59,385 bases of DNA from Akkermansiaceae bacterium. GTDB lineage: Bacteria > Verrucomicrobiota > Verrucomicrobiia > Verrucomicrobiales > Akkermansiaceae. Numbering within the stretch: the stretch's first letter is position 1; each line of letters opens with the position of its first letter. Shown here piece by piece: positions 10,803 through 17,686 of this stretch. The stretch lies in the NCBI GenBank assembly GCA_025354565.1, contig JANXMQ010000082.1, forward strand, positions 1 through 59,385, written 5' to 3'. The translations under genes and the position numbers were made by a program. A model generated the notes under the pieces. That model was given only the letters and a program-made list of their open reading frames with translations, was not told the DNA's origin and did not search any database.

Positions 10803-11513
10803 ATGATTGCAGGATTGATGGAACCTTCCGGCCTGATCGAGCGGGGCGGCCCGCTGGTGTGGGTTTTGCTGGGCTTGGGCTTTATTGGCACGGTCTGCGT
10901 GGTGGAGCGCTTGTTTTTCTTCCACCGGGCGCGGATCAATGTGGGAAATTTACTCGTCGGACTTTCACAGCACATCCGGCGGCGGGCATTTGCGGAGGCG
11001 CTGCACGAGGCGGCTCGCGCACCCGGCCCGGTGGCGCGGGTGGCCCATGCGGCTTTGTTGCGCTACTATTTGCCCCGGGTGGATCTGCGCGACGTGGTGC
11101 AGGAGGCGGGGCAAATGGAGGTGCCACGGATCGAGAAAAACATCCGGGCCATCCTCGGTGCGGCCTTGTTGGCACCGCTGGTGGGAATGCTCGGCACGTT
11201 GTTAGGAATGTTGGATACTTTTCAAAAAGTCAGCGAGCAAGGCGGCTTCACCAGCCCGGCGGAACTCTCGGCCGGCGTCTTCATGGCGCTAATCACTTCG
11301 GTCATCGGCCTCACGGTAGCAGTGCCGCTCTATCTGTTTTACCTGTATTTCCTGGGCCGGGCGAAACGCTTGGTCCACCGCATCGAGCGGGCGGGGATCG
11401 AGATGGTCCACCTCATCGCGGATGCCCGTGAGGAGGAGGAATTTGCGCCTTTCCGGGGTGAGGTGACCGGCCACAAGAAGCCGGTGAAAGCCAATCGGGA
11501 GACGACGAAATGA
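10803..11513 (+). CDS. MotA/TolQ/ExbB-family membrane protein, conserved Glu replaced
   Basis: This 236-residue inner-membrane protein has the ExbB/TolQ layout: one helix near the N-terminus (about 17-38), a cytoplasmic domain, then two long helices (about 117-137 and 157-185) with GMLGTLLGML and the ALITSVIGLTVAVP stretch. In ExbB and TolQ the last helix starts with a G-x-x-E-A-L motif whose Glu (E176 in E. coli ExbB) is strongly conserved. Here the aligned residue is Met161 in GVFMAL, and the position of Thr181 is Ser166. The stop overlaps the start of the ExbD-like gene by 4 bases. I infer an energising-motor homologue whose proton path is altered or lost. Confidence 0.85.
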   Translation: MIAGLMEPSGLIERGGPLVWVLLGLGFIGTVCVVERLFFFHRARINVGNLLVGLSQHIRRRAFAEALHEAARAPGPVARVAHAALLRYYLPRVDLRDVVQEAGQMEVPRIEKNIRAILGAALLAPLVGMLGTLLGMLDTFQKVSEQGGFTSPAELSAGVFMALITSVIGLTVAVPLYLFYLYFLGRAKRLVHRIERAGIEMVHLIADAREEEEFAPFRGEVTGHKKPVKANRETTK

Positions 11514-11956
11514 AGCTGGAAATGACCTTGCCGGAGACTCCGGGGTTCATGCACGCGGTGCCGGTCCTGAATATTTTCGCGTTGCTGCTGTTGTTTTTCC
11601 TGCTGGGGCCGTCCTTGGTGCTGCAATCCGGCGTAGCGGTGGATTTGCCGCCGTCACGCTTTCAAATGGAGCGCTATCAGAACACGCTGGTGGTCACGCT
11701 GGGGCCGGGCGAGCCGACACCGCGGATTCACTTCGGGCGGGATGCGGTGTCGCTGGCCGAACTCGCCGAGCGCCTCGAAAAACTCCGGGCAGATGGCATG
11801 AAATCTAAGGCAATCGTCCTGCTTCAGACCAATACCGATACCCCGGTCGGTGTCGAGCGTGAGGTGACGGAACTGGTGCTTTCCAAGGGCTTCCGCATTG
11901 CGCTCGTCGGGAAAATCCCACCCGCCGCCCCAGTGCCGCAACCGACTAACAAGTGA
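11510..11956 (+). CDS. ExbD/TolR-family protein with Asn in place of the essential Asp
   Basis: This 148-residue protein has one N-terminal helix (about 17-38) and a periplasmic ExbD/TolR domain. The family core is P-F-I-D-V-M, with an Asp (D25 in ExbD, D23 in TolR) needed for proton-driven function. The aligned stretch here is PVLNIF, so residue 21 is Asn (codon AAT, one transition away from GAT). The remaining helix pattern and the following VAVDLP match the family well. The start overlaps the stop of the ExbB-like gene (ATGA), and the stop overlaps the next start. The C-terminus is proline-rich. I keep the family call and leave the motor function open. Confidence 0.85.
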   Translation: MKLEMTLPETPGFMHAVPVLNIFALLLLFFLLGPSLVLQSGVAVDLPPSRFQMERYQNTLVVTLGPGEPTPRIHFGRDAVSLAELAERLEKLRADGMKSKAIVLLQTNTDTPVGVEREVTELVLSKGFRIALVGKIPPAAPVPQPTNK

Positions 11957-12747
11957 TGGCTGGCCCCGCGATCAAGCCCCGAAAGCCGATGAACACACCG
12001 GAATGGATTTTCCGTTGGCGGGGCAGTAATTCGTCATTTTTCCCGATGCTGCTAGCCGTCACCTTCGCTCTGATCGCGTTCGCTCTGCTCGTGACCACCG
12101 TCCGCATCCGGGTGGTCATGCCGGGGAAATCCACCCCGCGCAGCGCTGCGGTGATCCATCTGCGCGATGATGTCGAGGGCCGGGCGCTCGGCCAACTCGC
12201 TCAGGAGGGCGGACCGTTTCCTTCTCGCTTCGAGCCGTCCCAGTGGGAGGGGCTCGCCGGATTGGAAAAAGCCGCGATGAATGCCACCCGCTATCAGCCG
12301 CAAGCGTATGCGCCGAAGTTGAGGGATCTGCCAGAGGAAAACCAACTCCGCCCGCTTGATCTTGCGACGAAGGGTGAGTCATTTTTCCCGAAGCCCCCGG
12401 TTCAGGTAGGTGAAATCCCAAACTCCGCCGCGCTCAAGCTGGTCCCGGTTCTTTACCCGCTGTCGGGTGATTCCAGCGCGATGCCGACGGGCGAACTGCC
12501 ACCCTTTCCCGCCCCGATCGATGGTGCGATGACCTCCGCTTTCTGGCGATTCCTTGTGCGCCTGGGGCCGGATGGCAACGTGGCGGAGGGAGTGTCGCTG
12601 GAAAAAGGCGGCGAGGCAGGGGCACTCGAATTGGAGTCTTGGCTGCATCAAGTATCATTCAAACCTGCCCCTGGAAAATCTGCCCGCTGGCTCGCCGTGG
12701 GCATCGACTTCACCAACCAACCCAGCCATGGACCTAACGCTCACTGA
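11956..12747 (+). CDS. Membrane-anchored TonB-like protein, third gene of the ExbB/D operon
   Basis: This 263-residue protein has a short basic N-terminus, one membrane helix (about residues 30-50), a long proline-containing periplasmic stretch and a C-terminal domain from about 190. That domain reads FWRFLVRLGPDGNVAEG and later SWLHQVSFKPAP, which follows the TonB C-terminal pattern (strand, D-G-x-V, helix, F-K-P). Similarity to TonB is at the level of layout only. The start ATG at 11956 overlaps the preceding TGA (TGATG); a GTG at 11953 would add one residue. Gene order ExbB-ExbD-TonB-like supports a role as the periplasm-spanning arm of the complex. Confidence 0.55.
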   Translation: MAGPAIKPRKPMNTPEWIFRWRGSNSSFFPMLLAVTFALIAFALLVTTVRIRVVMPGKSTPRSAAVIHLRDDVEGRALGQLAQEGGPFPSRFEPSQWEGLAGLEKAAMNATRYQPQAYAPKLRDLPEENQLRPLDLATKGESFFPKPPVQVGEIPNSAALKLVPVLYPLSGDSSAMPTGELPPFPAPIDGAMTSAFWRFLVRLGPDGNVAEGVSLEKGGEAGALELESWLHQVSFKPAPGKSARWLAVGIDFTNQPSHGPNAH

Positions 12748-12967
12748 GTTTGTCCGCGATGTTTTGCTAGGTTCCTTCGTCTTGGTCCCGCTGTTGGCCG
12801 TGATTTCGCGGACCCTCCACGCCCGGGTGGAAAAGCGCGCGCTTGCCAACCGCGTCATCTGCCGCCTGTGCCTGCATGCGTTCGAGGACAGCAGCCACGT
12901 CCAAGCCGTCATCTGCCCGATCTGTGGCGCGGCCAATGAAAAAGGCCGCAGCCGCCGACTGGGGTGA
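12728..12967 (+). CDS. Small membrane protein with a zinc-ribbon tail
   Basis: This 79-residue protein overlaps the end of the TonB-like gene by 20 bases in another frame. One hydrophobic helix lies at about residues 12-27. A cytosolic-type zinc ribbon follows, with CRLC and CPIC pairs about 20 residues apart (about 45-48 and 64-67), then a basic tail. I know no named family for it. Its overlap and conserved-looking Cys pairs argue that it is real and belongs to the ExbB/D-like operon, perhaps as an assembly or sensing subunit. Confidence 0.6.
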   Translation: MDLTLTEFVRDVLLGSFVLVPLLAVISRTLHARVEKRALANRVICRLCLHAFEDSSHVQAVICPICGAANEKGRSRRLG

Positions 12968-14806: not shown

Positions 14807-17686
14807 ATGTCCGAGCTCGCAAAATCCCTTCAAGCCTTCGTCACCTACGTCCAGACCCACCTGAGCGGCGACGAAAAAGGCGAAGCCGCCGAGTTTCTCG
14901 ATCATCTGTTCCGCGCGCTCGGCCATGACGGCATCAAGGAAGCAGGAGCCTCCCGGGAAAACCGCATCCTCAAGAAGGGCCGCGCCAAGGGCAAAAACTT
15001 CGGCGATCTGCTCCTGCCGGACTGCGTGCTGATGGAGATGAAATCACGCGGAAAAAAACTCGAACGCCACTACGACCAGATCTTCGACTACTGGACGCAC
15101 ATTGTCCCCCACCGCCCGCCCTACGTCATCCTCTGCAACTTCGACGAATTCTGGATCTACGATTTCAACATCCAGCTTTTCGATCCCGTCGAAAAAATCA
15201 AACTCGTCGATCTTCCCCAACGTGCCGAGGCGCTTTCCTTCCTCCTGCCAAAACCGCGCAAGCCGCTCTTCAACAACAACCGCGTCGAAGTGACCCGCAA
15301 GGCTGCCGACGAACTCGCCCAGCTCTTCCGCGCTCTGGTGAAACGCGGCGAGGATCGCACCCGCGCCCAGCGCTTCATCCTGCAAATCCTCGTCACCCTC
15401 GTTTCCGAGGACATGAACCTGCTCCCGCGCCAGATTTTCGCACGGCTCGTGGACGATTGCCGCGTGAAGGGCGAAAGCTCTTATGATCTCATCGGCGGGC
15501 TCTTCCTCCAGATGAACAACCAGACTCCGGCGCGTGGCGGACGCTATACCGAAGTGCCGTATTTCAATGGGGGGCTCTTCTCGGTCATCGACCCCATCGA
15601 ATTTGAACCTGCCGAACTCGATCTCCTCGCCATCGTTGCGGAAAGGAAATGGAACCGCGTGAAACCCGAAATCTTCGGCACCCTCTTCCAGTCCAGTATG
15701 GATGCCGACGAGCGCCACGCCTTCGGTGCCCACTTCACCAGCGAGTTCGACATCCAGAAAGTCGTCGGCCCCACCATTGTCCGCCCGTGGCGGGCACGCA
15801 TGGAAGCGGCGTGGAACAGCATCGACAAGCTCATGGAAGTACTCCACGCGCTGCGAGCCTTCCGCATACTCGATCCGGCCTGTGGCTCCGGAAACTTCCT
15901 CGCCGTAGCCTATCGGGAGATGAAACGAATGGAGCAGGAAATCCTCGTCCAACTGCGGAACTTGAGCCCTGTCATCCGTCTCAAGGAGAACAAAGCGGAA
16001 AGGTCAGTGCCTCCGGAAGCACTTATGAATTCCGTTTCCATCCAGCAATTTTACGGCTTGGACGTGCTGCCCTTCGCCACCGAACTCGCGAAGGTCACCC
16101 TCATGGTCGCCAAGGAAATGTGGATCATCGAAAACAGCCACGCCGGAGATGCCGAAAGTCTCTTCGCCCGCGAAACGCCCCTACCACTCGACAACCTCGA
16201 TCAAAACATTCTTTGCACCGATGCACTTTTTGCCGAATGGCCAAAAGCAGATGCCATCATTGGAAACCCGCCGTATCTCGGCTCCCGCTACATCGCGCAG
16301 GAACTCGGCTACGACTATGCAAGGCGCGTGCACGACCGTTTCCCGGACATTCCGAAAATGGCCGACTTCTGCACCCATTGGTTCCGCATCGCCCATGACG
16401 CCCTACCGGAAAACGGACGCGCGGGACTTGTTGCCACCAACACCATCCGCCAAAACGAAGGCCGCGTGGCCAGTCTTGATTATGTTGTAGGAAACGGCGG
16501 CACCATAATCGACGCGGTTTCCACCCAAGTCTGGTCGGGTGATGCAGCGGTGCATGTCTCCATCGTCAACTGGATCAAGGGGGATGAAACCGGCACAAAA
16601 ACACTAACCACCCAGAAAGGCGACCGCGTCAGCGATCCTTGGAAGATCGAGCAGGTGGAATACATCGAGCCAACGTTAGCCACCTCTTTGAATGTCTCGA
16701 CTGCCGCCGAGCTGAAAGCGAACCAGAATCCTAAGCGTGTTTACCAAGGGCAAAAGCCCAACCAACCCGGCTTCCTTCTGAATGAATCCGAGGCGCGTGA
16801 ATGGATCAAAGGAGACCCCGCGCTCAAAGAGATCGTGTTTCCATATCTGATCGGGCGTGATCTCGTTGAGAACGGCGGGCCGTCGCGCTGGATCATCGAC
16901 TTCGCCCAACGCGACCAATTTGAAGCCCGCCAATTCCCCCGCGCTTTCAAGAGGATTCAGGAAAAGGTGATGGAACCGATTCAGAAGAAAGCAAGGGAGG
17001 AACTAGTCAAGACAGGCAAAGCGGGTGTGTGGGCGCGTATGGCGGAGAAGTGGTGGCTCTTTGAAAGGTCACGTCCCGAGTGCATCGCTGAAATAACTGT
17101 CCTGCCGCGCTACATCGCTGTCTCGCGTGTCACCAAGAGGCCGATTTTCGAATTTGTCTCTCCGGCGATACATCCTGACACGGCAATCGTCGCATTCATT
17201 TTCCCGGACGATTACAGCTTCGGCATCATCCAAAGTTCCATCCACTTCGAGTGGTTCAAAGCCCGCTGCTCCACGCTCGAAAGCCGTTTCCGCTACACCA
17301 GCGACACCGTCTTCGACAGTTTCCCCTGGCCGCAATCGCCGACGCGCAAGCAAATCGAAGCCGTGGCCAAGAAAGCCGTAGCCCTGCGCCAGCTCCGCCG
17401 CGAGGTCATGGCCAAGATGAACTGGTCCCTGCGTGATCTCTACCGCACACTCGATGCACCCGGCTCTAACCCCCTGCGCGATGCTCAAGCCAAACTCGAT
17501 GCCGCCGTCCGCGCCGCCTACGGCATGCCCAAGACCGCCGACATCCTAACATTCCTGCTCGCCCTGAACCAAACCTGCGCCGCCAAGGAGGCAGCCGGAG
17601 AAAAGATCACTCCGCCGGGATTGCCCTTGCCGGTGGAGGAGCATTCAAGGTTTGTGACGAGCGATTGTATTCAAGTTGCAGATTAA
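14807..17686 (+). CDS. Type IIL (MmeI-like) single-chain restriction-modification enzyme
   Basis: This 959-residue protein carries nuclease, methylase and specificity parts in one chain. The N-terminal domain has a PD-(D/E)xK site in the MmeI arrangement: Asp67, then Glu77-Met-Lys79 (segment GDLLLPDCVLMEMK). A helical linker follows to about 340. The gamma-type N6-adenine methylase has motif I LDPACGSGNF (about 355-364) and motif IV NPPY (about 486). The rest, to about 930, fits an MmeI-type target-recognition domain. Enzymes of this class methylate one strand and cut about 20 bases away. Because all nuclease residues are present, I expect active restriction as well as modification. The recognition site cannot be read by eye. 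It is a solitary gene with its own terminator-like palindrome. Confidence 0.88.
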   Translation: MSELAKSLQAFVTYVQTHLSGDEKGEAAEFLDHLFRALGHDGIKEAGASRENRILKKGRAKGKNFGDLLLPDCVLMEMKSRGKKLERHYDQIFDYWTHIVPHRPPYVILCNFDEFWIYDFNIQLFDPVEKIKLVDLPQRAEALSFLLPKPRKPLFNNNRVEVTRKAADELAQLFRALVKRGEDRTRAQRFILQILVTLVSEDMNLLPRQIFARLVDDCRVKGESSYDLIGGLFLQMNNQTPARGGRYTEVPYFNGGLFSVIDPIEFEPAELDLLAIVAERKWNRVKPEIFGTLFQSSMDADERHAFGAHFTSEFDIQKVVGPTIVRPWRARMEAAWNSIDKLMEVLHALRAFRILDPACGSGNFLAVAYREMKRMEQEILVQLRNLSPVIRLKENKAERSVPPEALMNSVSIQQFYGLDVLPFATELAKVTLMVAKEMWIIENSHAGDAESLFARETPLPLDNLDQNILCTDALFAEWPKADAIIGNPPYLGSRYIAQELGYDYARRVHDRFPDIPKMADFCTHWFRIAHDALPENGRAGLVATNTIRQNEGRVASLDYVVGNGGTIIDAVSTQVWSGDAAVHVSIVNWIKGDETGTKTLTTQKGDRVSDPWKIEQVEYIEPTLATSLNVSTAAELKANQNPKRVYQGQKPNQPGFLLNESEAREWIKGDPALKEIVFPYLIGRDLVENGGPSRWIIDFAQRDQFEARQFPRAFKRIQEKVMEPIQKKAREELVKTGKAGVWARMAEKWWLFERSRPECIAEITVLPRYIAVSRVTKRPIFEFVSPAIHPDTAIVAFIFPDDYSFGIIQSSIHFEWFKARCSTLESRFRYTSDTVFDSFPWPQSPTRKQIEAVAKKAVALRQLRREVMAKMNWSLRDLYRTLDAPGSNPLRDAQAKLDAAVRAAYGMPKTADILTFLLALNQTCAAKEAAGEKITPPGLPLPVEEHSRFVTSDCIQVAD

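Follow-up and report, generated by a model that had tools for sequence, protein, structure and literature searches.

A verrucomicrobial ExbB-ExbD operon family in which Asp and Asn alternate at the proton-binding site of ExbD

The window analysed here is a stretch of 59,385 nucleotides (contig JANXMQ010000082.1, assembly GCA_025354565.1) from an Akkermansiaceae bacterium. Positions 10,803–12,967 carry four overlapping genes, all on the forward (+) strand, for an ExbB/TolQ-like protein, an ExbD/TolR-like protein, a TonB/TolA-like protein (T) and a zinc-ribbon membrane protein (Z). We found that this ExbD has Asn at the column of the proton-binding Asp of its family, that the site has switched between Asp and other residues many times in Verrucomicrobiota, and that the Asn lineages are under strong purifying selection. 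We put at about one half the probability that the operon encodes a Ton/Tol-like trans-envelope complex with optional proton coupling through the ExbD Asp, which in its Asn form serves as an unpowered tether or scaffold or is moved passively.

Results

The ExbD/TolR-like gene (11,510–11,956; 148 amino acids) overlaps the ExbB-like gene by 4 bases and matches PF02472 at 41.2 bits (E = 2.2e-10; cut-off 25.4). Its Asn21 (codon AAT, 11,570–11,572) aligns with TolR Asp23, at the column of the essential proton-binding Asp, and the motif region is free of gaps (query VPVLNIFALLLLFF versus TolR VPLLDVLLVLLLIF from solved structures). Because the phmmer match of this ExbD is itself weak (E = 0.57), the column rests on this gapless motif, on alignment A2 and on the Asp-bearing orthologues described below. 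A structural model (predicted local distance difference test score, pLDDT, 84) shows one long helix enclosing residue 21, plus a periplasmic domain. Its five best matches in the PDB are all ExbD/TolR periplasmic domains, 8vgc, 8vgd, 5by4 and 8p9r foremost, with probability 1.00, E-values of 0.002–0.004 and a TM-score on the target of 0.84–0.85 for the ExbD chains (8vgc 0.84). The protonatable Asp found in the helix of 5:2 motors driven by the proton motive force is absent from the window ExbD, where Asn21 takes its place. Passages of two papers call this Asp essential, or predict it to be so, in ExbD, TolR and MotB (PMC11658791, PMC12215075). The initial annotation of this DNA had placed Asn21 at the ExbD Asp column and Met161 at the Glu column of ExbB, and the ungapped alignments bear out both assignments.

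We read the site in three nested samples. Among 140 loci it holds Asp in 77, Asn in 61 and Gly in 2. Within the host genus, 59 distinct operons have Asn (33) or Asp (26) and no other residue, and many, not all, of the neighbouring transmembrane (TM) positions vary over three to seven residues. Conservation of Asn, which the initial annotation had named as a sign of a distinct subfamily, is not what we see: the two residues alternate within one genus. Over 227 operons, which are not an even draw since the loci added from class and phylum are a subset, mostly better-scoring, of the matches listed, Asp stands in 117 and another residue in 110 (Asn 90, Ser 7, Gly 6, Thr 4, Gln 1, Cys 1, Ala 1). 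The idea that only Asn is tolerated besides Asp thus holds in the genus sample and is rejected phylum-wide. The codons over the 140 loci are GAT/GAC for Asp, AAT/AAC for Asn and GGC for Gly, so Asp and Asn differ by one G/A transition. A scan of the columns of the 59 genus operons, with helix limits set by eye, found no charged residue inside the helices that separates Asn from Asp forms. A compensating membrane acid was sought in the same scan, and none turned up inside the helices. The different ion that the initial annotation had considered is therefore without support, no charged residue having been gained inside the helices of the Asn forms. The known sodium-driven relatives keep this Asp.

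We counted changes between Asp and non-Asp on a tree of the 227 operons, a quick tree built without the trait columns and supported by the Shimodaira-Hasegawa-like approximate likelihood-ratio test (SH-aLRT) only. Parsimony requires at least 30 changes, and at least 19 are forced by the starred branches. A bootstrapped tree of 53 rows has 7 changes, at least 3 of them forced. The trees of the one-clade test and of the independent-pair test of the 140-locus set were likewise quick and supported by SH-aLRT only. In a two-state model with Asp at the root, the log-likelihood was −51.1 with Asn-to-Asp changes allowed and −58.6 without them; reversals are preferred. We claim no direction for the Asp/Asn change because the rooting is at the midpoint.

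The Asn lineages are under strong purifying selection. In 11 close pairs of Asn forms, the ratio of nonsynonymous to synonymous substitution rates (dN/dS) was 0.02–0.21 for ExbB, 0.03–0.16 for ExbD and 0.12–0.33 for T; eight Asp-form pairs gave similar ratios where dS was measurable. The pairs use open frames, with the upstream extension trimmed in part. Asn21 is more than chance or error because Asn recurs in orthologues, including three in single-contig genomes (L182, L184, L187). The initial annotation had argued against random damage, and the low dN/dS, the recurrence of Asn and the retained gene order agree with it.

The ExbB/TolQ-like gene (10,803–11,513; 236 amino acids) matches PF01618 at 79.9 bits (E = 1.7e-22; cut-off 22.9) and is conserved across relatives. 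By phmmer, TolQ is its first match among solved structures, with ExbB nearly tied. Met161 (ATG, 11,283–11,285) falls on the Glu of TolQ and ExbB (Glu176 in E. coli ExbB) in a gap-free motif region (query GVFMALITSVIGL versus TolQ GIAEALIATAIGL, solved structures). Met is not typical even of this operon family: the column holds Thr in 45 of the 140 loci, Gln in 28, Glu in 26, Lys in 17 and Met in only 5. Glu is also a poor mark of membership because two of the five other ExbBs in the window's genome lack it (Glu, Lys, Ser, Glu, Glu). The polar ring of the pore is retained. Thr132 and Ser166 of the window ExbB (columns of E. coli Thr148 and Thr181) are Thr or Ser in 140/140 and 137/140 loci, and the Asn forms keep the TM2 ring Thr132 in 61 of 61 and Ser/Thr166 of TM3 in 58 of 61. 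The Pro kinks are equally stable (P125 in 140/140, P175 in 137/140).

A coordinated loss of Asp and Glu had been suggested for this operon. Over the 227 operons both acids are present in 39 and neither in 98; Asp occurs without Glu in 78 and Glu without Asp in 12. The raw association leans to joint loss: 39 of 51 operons with Glu have Asp, versus 78 of 176 without Glu. For 19 independent pairs the averages were 3.6 in which Glu followed Asp, 0.5 in which it went against Asp and 14.9 with no difference; the sign test, a weak one here, gave a median p of 0.25 (range 0.03–1). Simultaneous loss is thus not supported, given the 78 Asp operons without Glu, the two other ExbBs of this genome that lack it and the outcome of the pair test, though the raw counts lean that way.

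The gene for T (11,956–12,747; 263 amino acids) was taken to start at ATG 11,956, where it overlaps the ExbD stop by one base; the mechanically called open reading frame (ORF) begins at GTG 11,953. T has an FxW box, one TM helix and a C-terminal domain of TonB/TolA type at about residues 159–262 (alignment A3 and a model with mean pLDDT 80). No Pfam family matched T at E up to 1, TonB_C (PF03544) included. The top 13 Foldseek matches of the model are all TonB, TolA, HasB or FusB (best E 0.028, probability 0.99, none at E 0.001). The first 24 rows of a second structural comparison belong to the same four proteins, with Z-scores of 4.0–6.2, the last tied with an unrelated row. Weak in strength and consistent in identity, these matches show a TonB-type domain, less strongly than the ExbD fold is shown. 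The FxW box lies just N-terminal of the TM helix (Trp in 109 of 109 aligned proteins, Phe in 107); E. coli TonB has FPW just before its own.

The SxxxH motif of TonB is absent from the window T, which has Ala38 and Phe42 (12,079–12,081) at the Ser and His places, the latter being the column of TonB His20. Over 123 scored loci this column holds His in 33 and Phe in 65. Ser stands at −4 in 27 of the 33 His-bearing proteins, so SxxxH occurs in 27 of the 123 operons. ExbB Gly26 of the window (10,878–10,880) lies at what we take to be the column of E. coli ExbB Ser34, the partner of TonB SxxxH. This column is Ser in 33 of 33 operons whose T has the His and in 2 of 90 whose T lacks it. The T His and the Ser34 equivalent therefore appear to be lost together, and the window lacks both. 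The coupling rests on few events, with three changes for His and four for Ser34, and one independent pair on starred branches or three on all. According to passages of PMC12215075, Ser16 and His20 of E. coli TonB contact Ser34 and Trp38 of ExbB. The pairing seen here agrees with that contact and thus supports T as the partner of ExbB.

The His was then compared with the ExbD site. In the order-level set (the 123 scored loci) it occurs in 30 Asp forms versus two Asn forms and one Gly form. This association follows clades: 0–1 of 6 independent pairs show it. Asn forms with a TonB-type His exist (L141, L143 and, by eye, others at class level). A triple loss of Asp, Glu and the TonB His, hinted at by the first relatives, was not upheld: by eye, the His is often present in class-level operons that lack the Asp.

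Lys at the Glu176 column puts a positive charge in place of the family's acid. The 17 operons that have it are those among L141–L162 (Chthoniobacterales and relatives) and a few others. Fourteen of them have ExbD Asp, and 11 of those 14 also have the TonB-type His.

Z (12,728–12,967; 79 amino acids) overlaps the T gene by 20 bases and has one TM helix and a CxxC...CxxC pattern, through which it would bind zinc. No entry of the family libraries matched it over its cut-off. The order exbB-exbD-TonB-like-zinc-ribbon and the gene overlaps had been described before, and all four ORFs were confirmed. Of the 140 loci, 123 have a recognised TonB-like ORF after ExbD and 126 a recognised Z, which carries CxxC...CxxC in all 126. 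This retained order supports the proposal, made at the outset, of a distinct subfamily, and we regard the four-gene ExbBD relative as old and widespread in Verrucomicrobiota. As a separate observation, four Asn-form ExbB-ExbD pairs (L049, L052, L053, L066) have no recognised adjacent T or Z and retain the ExbB Ser34 equivalent; their T may lie elsewhere in the genome.

We searched for the family with a profile of its ExbD. Within the host genus the profile matched 68 of 73 genomes, among them all 48 of high quality; 66 of these matches are clear orthologues, and the remaining two (G008, G073) are weak or partial. At 1e-14 the profile matched 131 of 189 genomes of the class and 41 of 59 at phylum level, where paralogues are possible. 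Judging by the 58 class and 18 phylum genomes with no match at this threshold, the gene is often missing or strongly diverged outside the genus. Of 81 class loci taken, 78 have an ExbB-ExbD pair, and these 78, which include a few duplicates, have a T-like ORF in 77 and a recognised Z in 64. Among 22 loci from outside the class, ExbB was found in 22 and Z in 21, and the ExbD site is Asp in 14 of the 21 operons counted. Records with names include Haloferula rosea, Rubritalea marina, Persicirhabdus sediminis, metagenome-assembled genomes of Prosthecobacter and Candidatus Udaeobacter, and Chthoniobacterales; the named Haloferula, Rubritalea and Persicirhabdus strains are all three Asp forms. Rows were dropped as other paralogues (L069 and L070; L115, L117, L119 and L120, with DMTPLIDV), for an unreadable site (L033, L106), for want of an ExbB-ExbD pair (L051, L068 and three of the 81 class loci), for misalignment (L298), for lack of a zinc-ribbon gene (L356) or as duplicates.

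Two cases deserve separate mention. Another genus of the host's family (L256–L260) has Asp at the ExbD site in three operons and Asn in two, and four further genomes of that genus gave no profile match at 1e-14. In L196, a member of the host genus, ExbD is present as two ORFs in different frames, perhaps because a frameshift or an assembly error has split the gene.

Other ExbDs served as a control. All six others found in the window's genome have Asp (L004 read by eye). Asp is also present in 34 of 34 ExbDs sampled in the phylum, five from the window's genome and the best Pfam match of 29 of 39 phylum genomes; this set favours strong matches and includes at least one Asp form of the present operon family (L234). 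Twenty low-scoring ExbDs gave 18 with Asp and two without (L319 Ser, L330 Gly), and both of the latter lie in the present family. The loss of Asp is thus the unusual one here, because the other ExbDs of the genome all have Asp and its other ExbBs do not all have Glu. A literature search by titles and starts of abstracts, with subscription journals mostly outside its reach, recognised no paper on a natural ExbD or TolR without the Asp. When the 59 family rows were held together against other ExbBs, one clade was not rejected (approximately unbiased, AU, test, p = 0.685; the held tree was better by 9.7 log units), a result compatible with a single clade and short of proof.

The same genome has a cluster at G000:C204 58281–62686 (L001, L005, L006, L009, L012) with two ExbBs and three ExbDs, all three with Asp; 58830–59683 of that contig holds a tandem ExbD pair.

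Discussion

Our favoured reading would work as follows. By homology, the four proteins would form an inner-membrane complex with an ExbB pentamer around an ExbD dimer, T as a short TonB/TolA-like arm and Z as a zinc-ribbon partner. The helix of an Asn-form ExbD would still sit inside the ExbB pore, facing the conserved Thr/Ser ring. There the Asn side chain would be locked neutral, resembling the protonated state, and an ExbD so fixed could not complete a protonation cycle; MotB D22N is used to imitate protonation (PMC9389320). The complex would assemble as usual, without proton cycling on ExbD. It might then act as an unpowered link or scaffold, with the ExbD periplasmic domain near the peptidoglycan and T towards the outer membrane, or be moved passively by envelope forces. 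Species with Asp may still run the complex as a motor, given the alternation of Asp and Asn and the better fit of a model with reversals.

An unpowered function of the Asn form is likely on these sequence data and would fit the initial annotation's idea of a complex that protons do not drive; the selection acting on the Asn lineages implies that their complex does something useful. A Tol-like role in the envelope is plausible. Uptake through receptors would have other candidate drivers, given that all 20 relatives searched gave matches to TonB-dependent receptor plugs and that TonB_C matched at two other places in the window's genome. We hold only tentatively, and with some doubt, the wider view of a phylum-wide machine that toggles between proton-driven and unpowered by single-base Asp/Asn changes, and that would be the first known natural 5:2 motor fold in selected work without its ion-binding acid.

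Several points weigh against the unpowered complex. Asp seems to have been regained as well as lost, which is not obviously expected of a purely dead motor. We infer the absence of proton flux in the Asn form from its residues and the tether role from its anatomy. The fold match of T is weak by E-value and Z-score. Finally, many non-Asp operons at class level retain the TonB-type His, by eye, so loss of coupling would not be uniform.

The complex could still be proton driven by another route, through water or other residues (the acid at ExbB 137, ExbD His15, or ExbB Glu161 where present), with Asn21 merely lining the path. ExbB 137 is Asp or Glu in 59 of 61 Asn forms, His15 (11,552–11,554; six positions ahead of Asn21, where the helix ends on the cytoplasmic side) is retained in 58 of 59 genus operons, and the conservation and selection resemble those of a working complex. 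However, the 137 acid is also present in 63 of 77 Asp forms and His15 is common to Asp and Asn forms of the genus, so neither looks compensating, and residue 161 is not Glu in 98 of 110 non-Asp operons. In E. coli, ExbD D25N is inactive, as is TonB H20A, according to passages of PMC11658791. We consider this route unlikely.

A mixed dimer would keep one acid per pore by pairing the Asn-form ExbD with an Asp-bearing ExbD encoded elsewhere. The six Asp-bearing ExbDs of the genome and their tandem pair offer candidates, and PMC12204202 describes, for the Planctomycetes-Verrucomicrobia-Chlamydiae (PVC) group, dissimilar TolR-like pairs next to a tolQ-like gene. Yet the paralogues of this genome are strongly diverged in sequence and come with ExbBs of their own. 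Within the 140 loci, each fetched over a few kilobases and searched by the family profile alone (distant ExbDs may escape it), no Asn form showed a second ExbD. The sole locus with two ExbD ORFs, L196, is an Asp form and apparently one gene split over two frames. Asp-bearing orthologues share the same layout, so no change of partner accompanies the switch, and the mixed dimer appears improbable.

We think it similarly improbable that the complex never used Asp for protons in this phylum and needs at the site only a small polar residue hydrogen-bonded to the Thr ring. The eight residues accepted there and the ring kept in the 140 loci counted would fit. Against this, Asp is the commonest residue, outside the class too, and the SxxxH of force-transducing TonB/TolA proteins survives in the operons scored above, and in others by eye; together these suggest an ancestral motor that worked. 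A decaying or mis-sequenced allele, which the initial annotation had named as the opposite outcome and which three functional residues lost in one copy might suggest, is contradicted by the same changes in many genomes, single-contig ones among them, by low dN/dS and by intact frames, order and overlaps, and can hardly be credited.

The operon shares with the Ton system the ExbB and ExbD Pfam families, the ExbD periplasmic fold, the TonB/TolA-type C-terminal domain, the polar Thr/Ser ring, the Pro kinks and the FxW box before the TM helix. It differs in that the window operon lacks the ExbD helix Asp, the TM3 Glu of ExbB, SxxxH in the arm and the ExbB Ser34 equivalent, and in that its four genes form a fixed set, which includes a zinc-ribbon membrane protein and a T without a Pfam TonB_C match. 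Its likeness to Tol-Pal lies in TolQ as the first structure match of ExbB, in TolA domain III (1tol) as the first for T (Z 6.2, tied with TonB rows) and in one clear copy per genome in most of the host genus. Unlike Tol-Pal, it lacks TolR Asp23, and TolB_N (PF04052) was found in none of the 20 relatives searched, the window's genome included, where a diverged TolB could be missed. Force transducers with vWA domains, described with tolQ-like genes in PMC12204202, are likewise non-standard transducers beside ExbB/TolQ-like genes, Verrucomicrobia included. T has no vWA family match, and in that account the vWA family that has a pore helix of its own retains the proton-binding Asp, unlike the window ExbD.

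Repeated switching of the Asp under selection provides a natural experiment that parts the structural from the motor job of the ExbBD complex and lets one ask what a motor of this kind achieves without power. Matched Asp/Asn orthologue pairs are available within one genus for direct comparison, and the family is open to experiment because it reaches Akkermansiaceae and the named Haloferula, Rubritalea and Persicirhabdus strains. For annotation, it is a warning that an ExbBD operon should not be labelled a proton-driven transporter by default.

Neighbouring genes

A ketosynthase gene lies downstream of Z on the same strand in 66 of the 140 loci. The cluster reads as beta-ketoacyl-acyl carrier protein synthase, and the two downstream ketosynthases that were checked (L048, L067) are fabF. 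The adjacency is a neighbourhood link to fatty acid synthesis in many lineages. Elsewhere in the window, positions 14,807–17,686 encode a single-chain restriction-modification enzyme of the MmeI type, whose MmeI_N, helicase spacer, methyltransferase and TRD domains match Pfam.

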